Of a stretch of 64,000 nucleotides of DNA, positions 9,001 through 62,050 are shown piece after piece. Position 1 is the first letter of the stretch, and every line of letters starts with the position of its first letter. Under the pieces are notes generated by a model. The model had not been told where the DNA came from and ran no database searches. It was given only the letters and a program-made list of their open reading frames with translations. A program made the translations under genes and the position numbers. Where the stretch lies: positions 1,426,001 to 1,490,000 of the forward strand of contig DASZBM010000002.1 in assembly GCA_035944135.1 (NCBI GenBank), given 5' to 3'. This DNA comes from Acidobacteriaceae bacterium (GTDB lineage Bacteria; Acidobacteriota; Terriglobia; Terriglobales; Acidobacteriaceae).

Positions 9001-9518
9001 TCTCCAACCATCCGCTTTCCGAGAGCACCCTCCACCTCGAAAGCGCCTCACCCAATGCCGCAACCAACCTTCAGCGGCTCGCCCTCGAAGACGCGCTCTC
9101 CGACAACGGTGTCATCTTCGTGAAGCTCACCCTCACCGACGCGAACAAAAAGCTGCTCTCCCAGAACTTCTACTGGCTCGCCGCGCACGACTCCGACTAT
9201 CGCAAGCTGAACGACCTGCCCGCAGTCACTCTCCAGGCCTCGGCGACTTCGGAGTCCAGCAACTCCGAAAACCACATCACCGTAAAGCTGACGAACCCCT
9301 CGCAGACAACCGCGCTCACCACCAAACTCACGCTGCTTGACGGCCCGAAGGGCCAACGCATCCTGCCCGCCTACTACAGCGACAACTACGTCTCACTCCT
9401 GCCCAACGAGCAGCGCACGATCGAAATCACTTATCCATCCTCACCCGCACACGCCCACCCTGTCGTCACATTGCGCGGATGGAACATCACCCCCGCGACG
9501 ATCAACAGCACGCCTTAA
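6015..9518 (+). CDS. LamG-domain glycoside hydrolase family 2 (exo-beta-glucosaminidase/beta-mannosidase type)
   Basis: Secreted GH2 enzyme of 1167 residues. A signal peptide (1-29) is followed by a LamG/concanavalin-like domain (about 40-230, with GWSLALWVKPD), a GH2 sugar-binding domain (about 275-460, with HKRFWFRTHF), Ig-like domain(s), a TIM barrel (about 640-950) and C-terminal beta domains. The predicted acid/base is Glu777 (CGRNEG) and the nucleophile Glu835 (AVEIGLPS). The spacing and the barrel motif NIIRNWMGQNTEESFYDLAD resemble exo-beta-D-glucosaminidases and mannosylglycoprotein endo-beta-mannosidases more than LacZ. A GAGAGG site supports the ATG. It is transcribed alone, and a 7-bp repeat array begins right after the stop. 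Substrate is inferred only. Confidence 0.88.
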   Translation: MKLERSAPHCSALLPCFLFVSLACSAIAQSAPATPAYGPYNVRSIAGGIGVTKQLAAHDPLALSGSGWSLALWVKPDTANETALLAGVGQPLETFPRFLALRSGKPTFWAGSAGIPGQLAGESGQNTLESSTTLAPNSWHSIAVYTDGADTHLLVDGHDVAHAPMPIGPATPELQIAPVVTPSSEFHHFSGLLAFVNLARDLTPADREQLAHPPTDLDNLAFDDASKPWPVQTRQWIGYRSPQDPATLPRSAAPPQKPVAQPVPHLTDTFSDDNRTLTLRANWRMAEDSNDLPNPPRISAPGFDDSHWYAAVVPGTVLTTLVARGVYPDPDFGLNNMAIPESLAHKRFWFRTHFTAPPSTLHGHPTINFNGINYRAQIFLNGHALGRIDGAFTRGRFDVAGLLTPGDNVLAVLISPPDHPGIPHEQSLADGPGQNGGLMTIDGPTFADTEGWDWIPAIRDRDMGIWQDVTLSAQGPVSLDTPQIVTTLPLPDTSRAAITLRVPLHNATAETLHSTLDVSFENVHITRPITVAPGDSSVTLTPADTPELNIAHPRLWWPNGYGEPNLYHLAASIHIGNELSDELRSNFGIRELTYELSLLDTTGHLRRVEIDPAKAALTDDPLVDETHEGIRETPLGWVASLTPTGEHSPAVRDTNDFATQPALVIRVNGVRIAIRGGASGMEDMLKRVSRDRLEPFFRLQRDAHMNIIRNWMGQNTEESFYDLADQYGLLVWNDFWDSTQDDNIEPDDSALFLRNARDTITRFRNHPSIAVWCGRNEGVPTPALNRGLISLIASLDGTRFYSASSNRVNLHDSGPYKYQEPSEYFTHLALGFAVEIGLPSPPTLESFQSFLPKEDQWPISDDWAYHDWHQGGNGDTAVFMQAMDEQLGPPSSLQDFDRKAQLLNYVGHRAVFEGFNAHLWNPNSGRMLWMTQPAWPSTEWQIFSHDYDTHAAYYGAKLASEPIHIQLNLPDHTIAIINNTTTALPNLTVHAQVFDLSNHPLSESTLHLESASPNAATNLQRLALEDALSDNGVIFVKLTLTDANKKLLSQNFYWLAAHDSDYRKLNDLPAVTLQASATSESSNSENHITVKLTNPSQTTALTTKLTLLDGPKGQRILPAYYSDNYVSLLPNEQRTIEITYPSSPAHAHPVVTLRGWNITPATINSTP

Positions 9519-9555
9519 CTCGCAGCTCGAAGCTCGCAGCTGGGAGCTGGTCGCG
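9519..9555. repeat. Heptamer tandem array 1 (CTCGCAG-type)
   Basis: Five degenerate 7-bp units (CTCGCAG, CTCGAAG, CTCGCAG, CTGGGAG, CTGGTCG) begin on the first base after the GH2 stop codon. Same period and near-same unit as the arrays at 25022 and 32021. Confidence 0.75.
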
Positions 9556-19498: not shown

Positions 19499-19525
19499 CC
19501 CGCAGCATGGACAAAGAAATGCCCC

Positions 19526-19560
19526 TAATCTCTGTTCTCTAATCTCTGATCTCTAATCAT
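19526..19560. repeat. Heptamer tandem array 2 (TAATCTC-type)
   Basis: Five 7-bp units (TAATCTC, TGTTCTC, TAATCTC, TGATCTC, TAATCAT) fill the gap between murA and the next gene. The last unit contains the AT of that gene's ATG (19559-19561), so the array takes the place of a ribosome binding site. Confidence 0.7.
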
Positions 19561-22438: not shown

Positions 22439-23302
22439 TCACTCAACCGCGCCCATAAGCATCAGCGCCCTCTGCGCAAACGGCGAGTACACCAGCAGCG
22501 GCATGCAGGCAACCGCCAGTCCCACGCTCATGTGATGCAGCAGCAGCGCGGGGCTCAGCGCCCACAACAGGTCCATCACCAGCAGCCCCGGCCATAACTG
22601 CAAAAACTTCTGCCGCGCCCTCGGCGCCCGAAACAACACCGCACAAACCACAAACACGCGCACCGGAATTAGCACGGCTGCAGTCACCACAATCACCCGG
22701 AACGCCGCGTGCGCGTAACTCAGCGGACTCAACAGCTCGCCAATCTCTCCCAGGTTCGCAAGCGCGCCGACATAAAACCCCACATACATCACCTGCAACA
22801 GCACAAACAACGTCCTCACCACTGCGTGTGAGCTCCGCGGCAAATCTTCCGGTCCCGCGAGGACCCTCTCCAGGAAGCCGCGATCATGGACAACCTCGAC
22901 CTGGGTGCCCCATTCATCGCGCAGCGATGGGTGGGATTGAACTTGCGCGGGTGAGGCCACCGGCATCTCAATCCTCTCGACCGGCGCCACGAACCTGTAC
23001 CCTCGCCGCGCCAGCGTCTCCACAAATCGAGGGCTCCCCGCCTTATCGCCCAGCGCCTCGCGCACGCGGTTCACCGCCGAGTTCACGCCGTGCTCATAGT
23101 CCACAAACGTCCCCTCCGGCCATAGCTCCCGGCTGATCTCCTCCCGCGTCACCACCTCGCCCTGACGCTCCACCAGCATCATCAGCACCTGGAACGGCTG
23201 CGCATGAATCCGCACTCTCACACCCTGCCGGCGCAGCTCGCCCGTCGCGGCATCCGCCTCAAACGCACCAAACCGATACCGCCTCGCCGCCACTCGTTCC
23301 AC
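22439..23302 (-). CDS. Winged-helix DNA-binding protein fused to a multi-pass membrane domain
   Basis: 287 residues from a GTG at 23302 with GGAGG eight bases upstream. Residues about 5-105 are an OmpR/CadC-type winged helix (FGAFEADAATGELRRQG, then LWPEGTFVDYEHGVNSAVNR and ARRGYRFVAPV). A linker (about 110-150) leads to about four hydrophobic segments to the C-terminus. CadC-like proteins usually carry a single membrane span and a periplasmic sensor; here several spans are present instead. The linker codons include a copy of the CCCCATTC hairpin repeat (22904-22940). It may be a one-component membrane-bound regulator; its target is unknown. Confidence 0.75.
   Translation of the reverse strand: MERVAARRYRFGAFEADAATGELRRQGVRVRIHAQPFQVLMMLVERQGEVVTREEISRELWPEGTFVDYEHGVNSAVNRVREALGDKAGSPRFVETLARRGYRFVAPVERIEMPVASPAQVQSHPSLRDEWGTQVEVVHDRGFLERVLAGPEDLPRSSHAVVRTLFVLLQVMYVGFYVGALANLGEIGELLSPLSYAHAAFRVIVVTAAVLIPVRVFVVCAVLFRAPRARQKFLQLWPGLLVMDLLWALSPALLLHHMSVGLAVACMPLLVYSPFAQRALMLMGAVE
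22904..22940. repeat. CCCCATTC hairpin repeat, copy 1 (inside coding sequence)
   Basis: GGGTGCCCCATTC, a 6-bp stem (CATCGC 22916-22921 and GCGATG 22925-22930) and GGGTGGGATT, matching the layout of the intergenic copies at 60362 and 62007 but with a different stem. It is translated as part of the linker of the winged-helix membrane protein. Confidence 0.55.
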
Positions 23303-23472: not shown

Positions 23473-24243
23473 ATGAAACGCCATCTGTCTCTCTTCATCG
23501 GCGCTTTTCTTCTTCTCCGAGCACCACGCATTCTCGCCGAAGCCTCCCCCACCGCCCTCGCCGCCTTCAACACCTACGCCGGCCACGTCGAGTCCGGACT
23601 CGCACAACGGCACCACACACCCGAAACCTTCCTCGAGCTCAACCCCACCCAACGCGCACGCCTCCGCTCCGGCGAACTCCTGATCGAAAACCTCACCCCC
23701 GCCTCCCAACCCTCCGACGCCCTCATCCACCACTGGCGCGCCACCGCGTTCGTCCCCAACGCGACACCCGCCGACTTCGAGCGCCTCCTCCGCGATTTCT
23801 CCGCGTACCCGCACAACTTCGCGCCCGAGATCCTCTCCTCCACCGTCCTCACCAGCACCCCCACCCACACGCTTTTGCGCCTCCGTACGCGCCAGCACCA
23901 CGTCATCACCGTCGTCCTCGACACCACCTGCGACGTCGCCTTCGCCGCACTCGATCCCGCTCACGGCTACTCCATCTCCCGCAGCACCCGCATCGACGAA
24001 ATCACCCCCTCAGGCGATCAGGGCTTCCTCTACCGCCTCAACACCTACTGGAGCTACGAGCAGCGTGCCGGCGGCCTCTACCTCCAGCTCGAATCCCTCT
24101 CACTCACCCGCGCCATCCCCCGCGGCCTCGCCTGGGCCGTCCGTCCGTACCTCGAATCCATCCCGCGCGAATCACTCCTTTTCACCCTCAACTCCGCGCG
24201 CAACGCCCTCCGCAAACCGCCTCAACTGAAAACTGCTAACTGA
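23473..24243 (+). CDS. Exported SRPBCC/START-like protein of unknown function
   Basis: 256 residues with a signal peptide (1-23, ending RILAEA). The second half contains NTYWSYEQRAGGLYLQLESL and SLTRAIPRGLAWAVRPYLE followed by ESLLFTLNSARNAL, the pattern of SRPBCC-type ligand-binding proteins found in Acidobacteria. First of three same-strand genes with a CDP-alcohol phosphotransferase and a GtrA-like protein. The last few residues and the stop codon are encoded inside a heptamer array (24223-24257). No clear ribosome site; an in-frame ATG at 23437 is the alternative start. Confidence 0.65.
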   Translation: MKRHLSLFIGAFLLLRAPRILAEASPTALAAFNTYAGHVESGLAQRHHTPETFLELNPTQRARLRSGELLIENLTPASQPSDALIHHWRATAFVPNATPADFERLLRDFSAYPHNFAPEILSSTVLTSTPTHTLLRLRTRQHHVITVVLDTTCDVAFAALDPAHGYSISRSTRIDEITPSGDQGFLYRLNTYWSYEQRAGGLYLQLESLSLTRAIPRGLAWAVRPYLESIPRESLLFTLNSARNALRKPPQLKTAN

Positions 24244-24257
24244 GAACTCAAAACTGA
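24223..24257. repeat. Heptamer tandem array 3 (AACTGAA-type)
   Basis: Five 7-bp units (CAACTGA, AAACTGC, TAACTGA, GAACTCA, AAACTGA). The stop codon of the preceding gene (24241-24243) is inside the array. Unit sequence differs from the CAGCTCG arrays but period, copy number and location at a gene border agree. Confidence 0.7.
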
Positions 24258-24294: not shown

Positions 24295-25017
24295 ATGAGC
24301 ACGAACTCACTCACACCAACAGCACCCATGTACACGCCCGCCGTCCGCATCAACCGCTCACTCACCGCCAACGCTGAACGCCGTCTCCTCGAACACCTCG
24401 CCGCGCGCACACCGCGCGGCATCACCTCCGACCACCTCACCCTCCTCGGCTGGGCCGCGCAGATCTTCGCCGGTCTCTTCTACGCACTCTCCCGCACGCA
24501 CCCGCTCGCACTCCTCGCCGTCAACGCCTGCATCATCCTCAACTGGCTCGGCGACTCACTCGACGGCACACTCGCCCGCGTTCGCGATCAACAGCGCCCG
24601 CGCTTCGGCTTCTACGTCGACCACATCACCGATCTCTTCGGCGTCACCGCACTCCTCACCGGCCTCGCCTTCTCCGGCCTCGCGCACCCGCTCGTCGCCG
24701 CCGCCATGCTCGTCGGCTTCCTTCTTCTTTCCGCCGAAAGCTTCCTCGCTACCCACACCCTCGCGCGCTTCGAGCTCTCACAATTTCTCTTCGGCCCCAC
24801 CGAACTCCGCCTTCTGCTCATCATCGGCAACCTCTTCCTCCTGCGCAGCCCCTACGCGCACATCCCCTTCACTCACTCACCGGCTCACAGCATCCTGCTC
24901 TTCGACCTCGGCGGCATCATCGGCTCCGTCTGCATGATCGCCCTCGCTATCACCCTCACCCTCCGCCACACCGCTCAACTCTTCCACGCCGAACCCCTGC
25001 CGCGCGCAGAGCCTTAA
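24295..25017 (+). CDS. CDP-alcohol phosphatidyltransferase family protein
   Basis: 240-residue polytopic membrane enzyme. The signature D-x2-DG-x2-AR-x8-G-x3-D-x3-D is present as DSLDGTLARVRD followed by GFYVDHITD, so all metal-binding aspartates are intact. Members swap the CMP of a CDP-activated lipid for an alcohol such as inositol or glycerol phosphate at the inner membrane. AGAAAGGA lies before the ATG. Middle gene of the 23.5-25.5 kb trio; the acceptor alcohol cannot be told from sequence. Confidence 0.87.
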   Translation: MSTNSLTPTAPMYTPAVRINRSLTANAERRLLEHLAARTPRGITSDHLTLLGWAAQIFAGLFYALSRTHPLALLAVNACIILNWLGDSLDGTLARVRDQQRPRFGFYVDHITDLFGVTALLTGLAFSGLAHPLVAAAMLVGFLLLSAESFLATHTLARFELSQFLFGPTELRLLLIIGNLFLLRSPYAHIPFTHSPAHSILLFDLGGIIGSVCMIALAITLTLRHTAQLFHAEPLPRAEP

Positions 25018-25021
25018 CGGA

Positions 25022-25056
25022 CAGCTCGTAGCTGGCAGCTCGTAGCTCGTAGCTGA
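25022..25056. repeat. Heptamer tandem array 4 (CAGCTCG-type)
   Basis: Five 7-bp units (CAGCTCG, TAGCTGG, CAGCTCG, TAGCTCG, TAGCTGA) start five bases after the stop of the CDP-alcohol enzyme and separate it from the GtrA-like gene. Confidence 0.75.
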
Positions 25057-31280: not shown

Positions 31281-31358
31281 TAACGAAAAACGGGCTTGTA
31301 TTAACATCCCGCCGGGCACGCGGGGTCTCACCGCCGCTTGCCTTCGTCATCCCCTCAG

Positions 31359-32225
31359 ATGTCCCGCCGCCGCGCACTCCTCGAGCTCGCCGTCTCCTAC
31401 ACCCTCATCCTGCTCGTCATCTGGACTGCCAATCCCCTCCAGCGAATTCTCTACATCACTGCCGTCATTGTCCTCGCGGCCATCCTCATCCTCTCGTTCC
31501 AGGGCTGCGACAAACTCGGCCTCCGCCGCACCAATCTTCTCCGCTCTCTCTGGGTTGCCATCGCCGCACTCGTGCTCGCCGCAGTTCTTATCCTCGTCGC
31601 CGCGCACCTCCACACGCTGCATGCGCCGCACACCGTCTCAGGCTTGATCGCACGCTACTGGGGATACGCACTCTGGGCGTTCGTTCAGCAGATTCTCCTG
31701 CAGGACGTCTTCCTCCGCCGGCTGCTCATCCTCACTCCATCGCCGCGCCTCGCCGCGTTTCTTGCCGCGCTCATCTTCGCAATCGCCCACCTGCCCAACC
31801 CTATCCTCGTACCCATCACGTTCCTCTGGGGCTTCATCTCCTGCCTGCTCTTCCTTCACTACCGCAACATCATCCCCCTCGCCATCGCACACGCCGCCTT
31901 CGGCATCACGCTCGCGATCACCATCCCCTCCCCACTGATCCGCAACATGCGTGTCGGCCTCGGCTTCCTCCGCTACGGCGCGCACCACCACCGCAGGCTC
32001 GCGCAATCGTCAAACAGTCTTAGCTGGCAGCTCGCAGCTCGCAGCTCAAAGCTCAAAGCACAACCCCGCTCCGGGATTCCGCCAGACCCGGCCCCATTCG
32101 TCCGCGGTTTCATCGCGGACGAGCGGGTTTCGCAAGATTCCGATAGACCTCACCGCAGCCACATCGACCACACCGTATCCACAAACGTATGGGTCACCGC
32201 CGAAGCACCCATGCGTCTCTCCTGA
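31359..32225 (+). CDS. CPBP-like membrane protein with altered active site and repeat-derived tail
   Basis: 288 residues with about six membrane segments (residues 10-205). It follows the CPBP/Abi fold, but motif 1, normally EExxxR, is QDVFLR (Gln115, Asp116, Arg120). Motif 2 His144 (FAIAHLP) and motif 3 His178 (LAIAHAAFG) remain. From about residue 221 the protein is encoded by a heptamer array (32021-32062) and a CCCCATTC hairpin repeat (32091-32130), and its last 76 bp run antisense into the next gene. The true ancestral stop was probably near 32020. It may be a non-proteolytic member. Start codon uncertain (TTG at 31338 possible). Confidence 0.65.
   Translation: MSRRRALLELAVSYTLILLVIWTANPLQRILYITAVIVLAAILILSFQGCDKLGLRRTNLLRSLWVAIAALVLAAVLILVAAHLHTLHAPHTVSGLIARYWGYALWAFVQQILLQDVFLRRLLILTPSPRLAAFLAALIFAIAHLPNPILVPITFLWGFISCLLFLHYRNIIPLAIAHAAFGITLAITIPSPLIRNMRVGLGFLRYGAHHHRRLAQSSNSLSWQLAARSSKLKAQPRSGIPPDPAPFVRGFIADERVSQDSDRPHRSHIDHTVSTNVWVTAEAPMRLS
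32021..32062. repeat. Heptamer tandem array 5 (CAGCTCG-type), inside an open frame
   Basis: Six 7-bp units (TAGCTGG, CAGCTCG, CAGCTCG, CAGCTCA, AAGCTCA, AAGCACA). Because 7 is not a multiple of 3 the array is read in changing frame and adds LSWQLAARSSKLKAQ-type residues to the CPBP-like protein. Confidence 0.75.
32091..32130. repeat. CCCCATTC hairpin repeat, copy 2 (inside coding sequence)
   Basis: GCCCCATTC, then a perfect 8-bp stem CGTCCGCG (32099-32106) and CGCGGACG (32114-32121) around GTTTCAT, then AGCGGGTTT. Same layout as the 22904, 60362 and 62007 elements with an unrelated stem. It lies 29 bp after heptamer array 5. Confidence 0.5.
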
Positions 32226-33022
32226 CGCCACGCCCTTCCATAAAACACCCCAGCCAGCGCCGCCATCAGCACATATCTCCAGTTGAAGTGCACCGCTCTC
32301 TTGTTGAAGTGCGCCAACCCGAACACCGCCGCCGTCAATGCCAGCGCCCAGTAACGTCCCACTCTTCGCTCCAGCAGGTTTTGCATCCATCCGCGAAAAA
32401 ACAACTCCTCCGGCACTGCAATAAAGAAGAACGTAAAAACGAACGCACTCACCAGCCGCCATCCCTCCGGCCACCGCGCGTGCACATGCAGAAACCCGAG
32501 CCCCAGCAGAATCGCCACCGGCGCATAGAACAGGAACTCCCTCAACCCCACCCGCACATCTCTCCAGCGAAGCCGCAGATCGAAGCCCACTCCCTTCAAT
32601 CGCCGCACCGCACCAAATCCCCAAATTCCCGCATCCAGCAGCACGATCTTGTTGAACACCGACATCCCGCGCGGCCAAGCCGGCTCAAACCACCGCAGGT
32701 CCACCGCCAGCACCAGCACCAGCAGCACTACAAACTCCCGCCGGTCTCCACTCTGCTCCGGATCGGCAACCGCAGCCCACGCGAGCACCCCAGCCACCGC
32801 AATCGGCAGCAGCAGATAAACCGCCAGCCATCTCCACTCAAAGAGTCCGCGCCCCACCGTCACCAGGGCATACACCCCACACAACAATCCCGGCGCCACC
32901 ACCCGCACCCCGACCGGCAACTTCGCCGTCCAGCGCGCAAACCCCTCCTTCCAGAACGCCGCCCACACCATCGGCGCCAATGCCAACAGGGCCGCAATCA
33001 CCAGCAGCAGATCGACTCGCAT
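32150..33022 (-). CDS. CPBP-family intramembrane metalloprotease
   Basis: 290 residues with about eight membrane spans. The full active-site set is present: Glu205-Glu206 and Arg210 in PEELFFRGW, His238 in FGLAHFN, and His278/Asp282 in GASAVTHTFVDTVW. The family cleaves within membranes, as in prenyl-protein endopeptidases, and in bacteria is often tied to peptide immunity or processing. Its ribosome site and start codon lie in a heptamer array (33016-33057). Its 3' end overlaps the tail of the convergent degenerate CPBP-like gene by 76 bp. Confidence 0.9.
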   Translation of the reverse strand: MRVDLLLVIAALLALAPMVWAAFWKEGFARWTAKLPVGVRVVAPGLLCGVYALVTVGRGLFEWRWLAVYLLLPIAVAGVLAWAAVADPEQSGDRREFVVLLVLVLAVDLRWFEPAWPRGMSVFNKIVLLDAGIWGFGAVRRLKGVGFDLRLRWRDVRVGLREFLFYAPVAILLGLGFLHVHARWPEGWRLVSAFVFTFFFIAVPEELFFRGWMQNLLERRVGRYWALALTAAVFGLAHFNKRAVHFNWRYVLMAALAGVFYGRAWRQERRMGASAVTHTFVDTVWSMWLR

Positions 33023-33057
33023 CTCGTATCTCGCACCTCGAATCTCAAAGCTGATCG
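33016..33057. repeat. Heptamer tandem array 6 (CTCGNAT-type) carrying a start codon
   Basis: Units on the plus strand: CTCGCAT, CTCGTAT, CTCGCAC, CTCGAAT, CTCAAAG, CTGATCG. On the minus strand these read GAG-rich units, and the ATG of the CPBP protease is the end of the first unit (33020-33022), with the neighbouring GAGGTG as a possible ribosome site. Confidence 0.7.
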
Positions 33058-33145
33058 CTTGACATCACCGGTCACCATAAAGGTAGGGATATTTTCGTTT
33101 TCCCACTCTGGGCCATACCGCAAACGGAGCCAAGTTCTTTGCATT

Positions 33146-60361: not shown

Positions 60362-60405
60362 CCGGGTGCCCCATTCATGCGCAGTCTGATCGCGCATGGG
60401 TGGGG
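60362..60405. repeat. CCCCATTC hairpin repeat, copy 3 (intergenic)
   Basis: 44 bp: CCGGGTGCCCCATTC, stem CATGCGC (60376-60382) and GCGCATG (60392-60398), then GGTGGGG. Differs from the copy at 62007-62050 at one base. It lies between two convergent genes (VWA protein and F420-type reductase). Confidence 0.8.
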
Positions 60406-62006: not shown

Positions 62007-62050
62007 CCGGGTGCCCCATTCATGCGCAGTCTTATCGCGCATGGGTGGGG
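62007..62050. repeat. CCCCATTC hairpin repeat, copy 4 (intergenic)
   Basis: 44 bp, 43 of 44 identical to 60362-60405, same orientation. Lies between the stops of the convergent methyltransferase and TIGR03435 genes. The stem could also end transcription. Confidence 0.8.

Follow-up and report, generated by a model that had tools for sequence, protein, structure and literature searches.

Repetitive extragenic palindromic (REP) sequences are short imperfect palindromes that occur in many copies close to gene 3′ ends and in the gaps between tandem and convergent genes, and in the so-called REPtrons they flank the gene of a Y1-tyrosine HUH transposase, the REP-associated tyrosine transposase (RAYT), where the adjacent copies carry a GTGG foot (accessible parts of PMC6006769 and PMC3733652). 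REPs also occur in frame within some tnpAREP genes (PMC6006769, in part). Like the Rickettsia palindromic elements (RPEs), they are found as in-frame palindromes in conserved genes, often of replication and repair, and at the ends of open reading frames (ORFs) (PMC3733652, in part). A second type of repeat, the TAACTGA-type arrays of Beggiatoaceae, Cyanobacteria, and Bacteroidetes, consists of seven-nucleotide units that are mostly intergenic, with some at ORF ends or inside ORFs (PMC4679880, in part), and the tandem repeats of Borg proteins likewise add protein residues (PMC9879509, in part). Here, we analyzed a 64,000-nucleotide stretch of an Acidobacteriaceae genome, hereafter called the "window" (GCA_035944135.1, contig DASZBM010000002.1; C2:1426001-1490000 of genome G000), in which a REP-family hairpin and a heptamer array lie together within the reading frame of a CPBP/Rce1-like gene, CPBP-1, ahead of its antisense overlap with a convergent CPBP/Rce1-like gene, CPBP-2. 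We are confident that the overlap is ancient and that the REP and the heptamer array were inserted in frame into the linker that precedes it.

The repeats of the present genome resemble these systems, with several differences. The main REP subfamily in this genome carries GTGC instead of GT[AG]G, the copies beside the transposase gene have GTGG before the stem, and the foot is missing from the window copy. The copies examined have a single orientation per region, neighbouring copies included, and no inverted pairs (bacterial interspersed mosaic elements, BIMEs, or REP doublets forming hairpins, REPINs), which are common among REPs and not required of them, were seen among them. As compared to the intragenic REPs and RPEs, a REP and a heptamer array occur together here, in the linker between two genes that overlap antisense. 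In contrast to the TAACTGA-type arrays, the heptamers here have the core A[AG]CT and lie near 3′ ends, not before start codons. They also follow the GC skew, while the accessible part of PMC4679880 presents eight heptamer sets in a single orientation in one cyanobacterial sample and poses as a question whether this holds genome-wide. The Borg repeats belong to another host and another genome type.

Both CPBP-1 and CPBP-2 match PF02517 above the gathering score in a Pfam profile search, and CPBP-1 has no match in NCBIfam. According to the original prediction, the CPBP-1 frame passes from about residue 221, which corresponds to position 32019, through a heptamer array and a hairpin 29 bp apart, and then antisense into the neighbour. 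The frame indeed reads across both repeats and into CPBP-2, and the measured gap between the repeats, 31 bp, is close to the predicted one (Table 1). With patterns derived from the copies themselves, the hairpin was found three times in the window and in none of 100 shuffles, and the heptamer pattern had 18 overlapping occurrences versus a shuffle mean of 0.49 and a maximum of 3. The fold of the window hairpin surpasses that of 200/200 shuffles (z −4.5), and a search of 31300–33100 against Rfam, with E values up to 1, gave no match. A direct repeat with 12/14 identical positions flanks the hairpin (GATTCCGCCAGACC at 32075–32088 and GATTCCGATAGACC at 32136–32149), and the two may be leftover REP tails, the first perhaps from a neighbouring REP.

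How old is the antisense end of CPBP-1? Homologous loci were drawn from 61 relatives, with matches in 14 genomes, and from 398 genomes of the family, with matches in 186 (own genome included in both counts). From the matches listed, we read 76 homologous loci besides the window, in one set of 36 (38 rows without the window's own row and the duplicate L090) and one set of 40. The CPBP-1 homologue runs antisense into the same neighbour, in the phase of the window, in 47 of the 76 loci. A recognisable tail and an overlap of 73–94 bp are present in 45 of these 47 (for example, RSHSDQVLSTSAWVNAEAPTLRS, as compared to RSHIDHTVSTNVWVTAEAPMRLS in the window), and the two exceptions, L077 and L195, have overlaps of only 16 and 4 bp. 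Another 11 loci overlap in a different phase, by 15–18 bp, and have a short unrelated tail. When the tail regions of all 77 loci were tested for three consecutive heptamers or a REP arm, these patterns were detected in the window's own locus and in 0/76 of the others. The tail is thus present in homologous loci that lack the repeats, and therefore the antisense end of CPBP-1 is old and predates them. The original prediction considered the tail to be probably new coding sequence, created by repeat insertion at the old stop, and named orthologues with a similar tail and no repeats as the observation that would speak against this. The 47 same-phase loci, 45 of them with recognisable tails, are exactly such cases, and the proposal must be abandoned.

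The part that is new in the window lies elsewhere. Between the MRVG motif and the neighbour's stop lie 26–68 nt in the 58 overlapping loci versus 191 nt in the window; L171, outside the 58, has a longer linker of 126 nt. In a DNA alignment of nine loci, including the window, the difference appears as a single clean gap of ~153 bp, and joining the window flanks yields ...LRYGAHHHRPHRSHIDHTVSTNVWVTAEAPMRLS, an orthologue-like tail of orthologue length. Judged from this alignment, the new part is an in-frame insert in the 26–68-nt linker that separates the CPBP-1 core from the neighbour's stop, and the protein tail is lengthened in its middle, not newly made. The linker is the sole stretch free of both genes, and the insert lies there. 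The idea that the repeats gave rise to the tail thus survives in part: they supply tail residues and are inserted relative to the relatives, but they were not added at an old stop. The residues encoded by the insert would presumably be translated. In being in frame and absent from orthologues, the insert is of the intragenic REP or RPE type. A distant-mode search of the insert against plasmids found no match.

Why does the antisense frame stay open? The wobble positions of CPBP-1 and CPBP-2 lie opposite each other in the common phase. We randomised the neighbour's codons synonymously in 49 phase-2 loci, consisting of the 47 above, the window, and one locus with non-overlapping genes. The tail was open for at least 23 codons in 94% of the observed cases versus 93% (standard deviation 4) of the randomised ones, and the mean opening, 25.2 codons observed versus 28.1 randomised, was not longer than expected. 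This randomisation of the 49 loci thus shows no selection on the antisense tail. Because the observed openness matches the randomised one, the amino acids of the neighbour explain it on their own, and selection on the tail is unnecessary. The 11 other-phase loci do without the common tail, and the antisense tail is probably dispensable.

Next, we consider the hairpin. Its 13-nt arm pattern has 108 near-matches in the 4.43-Mb genome versus 6 for the reversed-pattern control, showing that it is dispersed in high copy. In the stem, 277/286 pair cells are standard across 22 copies sharing one length class (the window copy and 21 called ones), with compensatory changes. The window copy departs from the family by two double compensatory changes and has one A–C mismatch. 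The genome contains a Y1_Tnp gene (Table 1), whose ORF carries HVH and YIHMNP, which we take to be motifs of this gene family, and it is flanked by REPs at C2:555412 and C2:555472 on one side and C2:556113 on the other. By copy number, stem covariation, and the flanking of a RAYT-type gene, the hairpin belongs to a REP family. The same RAYT–REP arrangement is described in the accessible parts of PMC6006769 and PMC3733652, and the REP may be cleaved or moved by its RAYT. A second Y1_Tnp gene, L091 (G000:C10:482572-482874), is interrupted by an in-frame TGA, and the stretch read contains no REP.

The original prediction further read from this locus that both repeat types share an insertion preference for gene ends. 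One locus does not allow such a reading, but the genome copies support it for the REPs and lean toward it for the heptamers. The repeats examined come from 282 kb fetched around the search matches, a part of the genome, and comprise 79 REP calls and 21 heptamer arrays of A[AG]CTNNN units in tandem, four of the arrays in the window. For the REPs, 100 of the 108 near-matches were listed, and those with one mismatch were partly fetched. The control was 464 kb, consisting of 20 stretches of 20 kb and the window. Genes were called with our own caller using several codon models, with approximate start codons; one codon model alone missed the minus-strand neighbour CPBP-2. The control intergenic bases are 52% tandem, 32% divergent, and 16% convergent. 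The location count covers 78 of the 79 REP calls, with C1:293683 dropped as a chance match without a palindrome and the window copy, inside an ORF, not counted. These divide into 29 in tandem regions, 23 in convergent and 7 in divergent ones, and 19 within ORFs. The convergent REPs thus make up 23/59 of the intergenic ones versus 16% of the intergenic bases (P 2e-5), and 23/29 tandem REPs lie closer to the upstream stop. These counts support a preference of the REPs for gene 3′ ends among the copies examined, as in PMC3733652 (in part). The 21 arrays are distributed over tandem (10), convergent (2), and divergent (2) regions and the inside of ORFs (7), and 9/10 tandem arrays are closer to the upstream stop, so their site is not just upstream of start codons. 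The heptamers therefore tend likewise to gene 3′ ends, in small numbers. Their avoidance of divergent regions is not significant (P 0.12; 21 arrays), and co-location with REPs beyond chance was not shown, with a REP within 100 bp of 2/21 arrays versus ~0.84 expected (P 0.20). In other genomes, heptamer arrays occur as inverted pairs tens of bases apart (for example, G033:C12:18312/18380 and G033:C9:167420/167455), as compared to the single arrays here.

Copies inside called ORFs number 19 REPs and 7 heptamer arrays, the window array among the latter, and some of these assignments may be gene-calling errors. In alignments to solved structures, the repeat-coded residues fall in a gap or remain unaligned in Ffh (heptamers), RsmA (two heptamer arrays, residues 97–132), RecR (REP, residues 133–165), and ThiE (REP, 13 residues). 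For ClpB, a 254-residue fragment was compared; the best structure matches begin to align after its REP, and two Hsp104 chains span the REP with ~17 fewer residues. The Ffh loop is 7–9 residues longer in this genome than in 12 relatives of the same genus; it is variable among 9 other relatives, and in L258 it is as long as here. Repeat-carrying ORFs matching NCBIfam above the cut-offs include HemE, ThiE, YoaA, RecR, RecO, a tyrosine recombinase, TruA, ThiL, MutL, the N-terminal domain of CysG, RsmA, and Ffh, and the family matches of DnaX and ScpA are below the cut-offs. Such in-frame copies within conserved genes agree with what PMC3733652 (in part) describes for intragenic REPs and RPEs. About 5 kb from ffh, a partial ffh-like fragment (G000:C2:485552-485824) has 73% identity to Ffh residues 308–406 and one stop.

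The orientation of both repeats follows the GC skew, which was calculated over 3 kb around each repeat with the repeat itself excluded. The REP orientation agrees with the local skew in 79/80 cases (the 79 calls and the window copy), and in 53/54 when one REP is taken per 5-kb cluster; the exception in both counts is C1:293683, without a palindrome. The heptamer orientation agrees in 20/21 cases, the exception being C10:306086, without a decidable orientation. On contig C2, 26/26 REPs to the left of 820 kb are on the minus strand and 12/12 to the right are on the plus strand (the window copy, also plus, is outside this count), and the skew changes sign between ~780 and 860 kb. The skew is weak or patchy in some control stretches, with positive three-kb windows in 11/18 at C2:450000 and 8/18 at C2:1050000. 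Two stretches within a strongly skewed arm, L152 and L153 (G000:C2:260000 and 450000), have a lower GC content (0.58) and a skew of nearly nil, and they are possibly acquired islands. Gene direction alone does not set the orientation: 21 tandem REPs are sense and 8 antisense. The C-rich strand is presumably the lagging strand in this genome. Arrays of the AGCTAG/AGCTGG type lean to the opposite sense in six other genomes: of 28 decidable loci (30 fetched, many of them overlapping, 2 ambiguous), 21 have the array on the locally G-rich strand and 7 on the C-rich one. The skew sense seen in this genome is thus not general for heptamers. Tandem REP arrays oppositely oriented on the opposite sides of a Pseudomonas genome are described in the accessible part of PMC3116915, and among the open-access papers listed in our searches, no title or abstract opening reports an orientation lock for heptamer arrays.

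What lays down the two repeats in a common orientation? A single strand-specific process, perhaps the RAYT, might act on a single-stranded lagging-strand template, placing REPs and heptamers in one orientation per replichore and writing short in-frame peptides into essential proteins such as Ffh, RsmA, and RecR, but we regard this unified process as rather doubtful. For the heptamers, the lock could instead be compositional, with arrays growing by slippage from locally skewed sequence so that their letters follow the GC skew, and this is a serious possibility that we place somewhat below an even chance. The AACT-type arrays are C-rich and G-poor in the orientation found here, and the opposite sense of the six other genomes favours this compositional explanation for the heptamers. 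However, the AGCTCGC-type units, which differ from their reverse complement by one G/C, still follow the skew here, and so do the near-palindromic REPs, in the same sense.

At the locus itself, the repeats lie within the tail and are absent in the relatives, as expected if an ancestral CPBP-1 had ended near 32020 and the repeats had destroyed its stop, producing a wholly new tail into the neighbour. One frame does stop at 32021, although it is not the CPBP frame, and the same antisense run-in of the repeat-free loci makes this explanation hardly credible. It is also very unlikely that the extended tail is functional, for example membrane-proximal or regulatory, with the insert kept for its function. 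The retained frame and the REP or heptamer peptides in other conserved proteins of the genome are consistent with such selection; on the other side stand the 11 loci with another frame, the openness of the overlap without selection, and the variable linker length among the relatives. Finally, the hairpin might terminate transcription of the convergent pair in both directions, with translation through it incidental, in line with its stability and with the enrichment of intergenic REPs between convergent genes. Since the hairpin lacks a long T-run after it and lies inside the CPBP-1 ORF, upstream of its stop, and since the 58 overlapping loci manage without it and REPs occur inside genes too, we consider the terminator role unlikely.

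We return to an ancient overlap with an in-frame insertion in the linker, and propose the following sequence of events. The two convergent CPBP genes have overlapped at their 3′ ends since before this lineage split, with the far end of CPBP-1 read antisense through CPBP-2 and remaining open only since the CPBP-2 amino acids give no stop there. Later, ~153 bp with the REP palindrome and the heptamer array would have entered the linker with the frame kept, adding ~51 residues in the middle of the tail. The REP was most likely passive, moved by the genome's RAYT/TnpA-REP transposase on the single-stranded DNA of one replication strand. Several points weigh against this proposal. Overlap is uninformative in 18/76 loci, with another arrangement, no overlap, or a neighbour outside the stretch read: 7 in the set of 36 (different arrangement, with a remote or unseen neighbour) and 11 in the set of 40 (8 without the neighbour in the fetched stretch and 3 non-overlapping). 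That the 76 loci are orthologues, not paralogues, is presumed from similarity and, in 58, also from the shared neighbour, and the nearest orthologues are 57–58% identical, which dates the insertion only loosely. The footless window REP (no GTGS) owes its membership to the core pattern and the stem, and ~75 bp of the insert belongs to neither repeat. The frame would be retained by chance in 1 of 3 cases, and inserts of such composition are not rarely free of stops (25% of mononucleotide shuffles).

The coordinates of the features are collected in Table 1. The window also contains a tandem repeat with a 14-nt unit, CTAATCTCTGATCT, in 2.4 copies at 19525–19558.

Table 1. Features of the CPBP locus, other repeats of the window, and related genes of the genome. 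Positions refer to the window unless a contig (C) or fetched locus (L) is given.
Feature	Position	Strand	Details
CPBP-1, CPBP/Rce1-like ORF	31359..32225	+	288 aa; ATG at 31359, stop 32223-32225
CPBP-1 conserved core	ends near residue 210		motif MRVGLGFLRYG
Insert	31990..32142	+	~153 bp (51 codons, a multiple of 3); not present in homologous loci read; edges ± ~10 nt
Heptamer array	32022..32060	+	AGCTNNN units: AGCTGGC AGCTCGC AGCTCGC AGCTCAA AGCTCAA AGCA
Spacer	32061..32091	+	31 bp; contains GATTCCGCCAGACC, similar (by eye) to GATTCCGATAGACC directly 3′ of hairpin
REP-family hairpin, core	32092..32128	+	13-pair stem, one A-C mismatch
Antisense overlap CPBP-1/CPBP-2	32150..32225		76 bp; ancestral; same phase in 47/76 homologous loci
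CPBP-2 stop codon	32150..32152	-	TGA; same place relative to C-terminus in eight aligned relatives
CPBP-2, convergent CPBP/Rce1-like gene	32150..33022	-	290 aa
Heptamer array	9517..9548	+	gene 3′ end, convergent context
Heptamer array, AACT type	24224..24255	+	overlaps gene 3′ end
Heptamer array	25016..25054	+	overlaps gene 3′ end
REP copy, shorter subtype	22903..22935	+	inside called minus-strand ORF
REP copy	60364..60404	+	between convergent genes
REP copy	62009..62049	+	between convergent genes
Y1_Tnp gene	C2:555548-556015		PF01797; ORF 155 aa; HVH and YIHMNP
ffh	L020:601-2016		repeat-bearing
rsmA	L015:940-1869		repeat-bearing
recR	L110:1270-1962		repeat-bearing
thiE	L107:1162-1830		repeat-bearing
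clpB	L145:413-3001		repeat-bearing
mutL	L060:199-2151		repeat-bearing

Intragenic REPs are already known, and this genome has several in-frame repeat insertions, of which this locus is one. It replaces a plausible but mistaken account, in which repeat insertion creates a gene tail, and it suggests the rule that convergent overlapping genes tolerate insertion in the short linker ahead of the partner's stop. The genome allows a side-by-side comparison of REPs and seven-nucleotide arrays, both in frame within conserved proteins. To the question raised in the accessible part of PMC4679880, whether such arrays keep one orientation along the chromosome, the copies here answer yes, with a switch where the GC skew switches. 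The contrast in orientation with the other genomes makes a replication-linked versus a composition-linked origin of the heptamers testable, and the orientation that the two repeats share is what deserves further attention.
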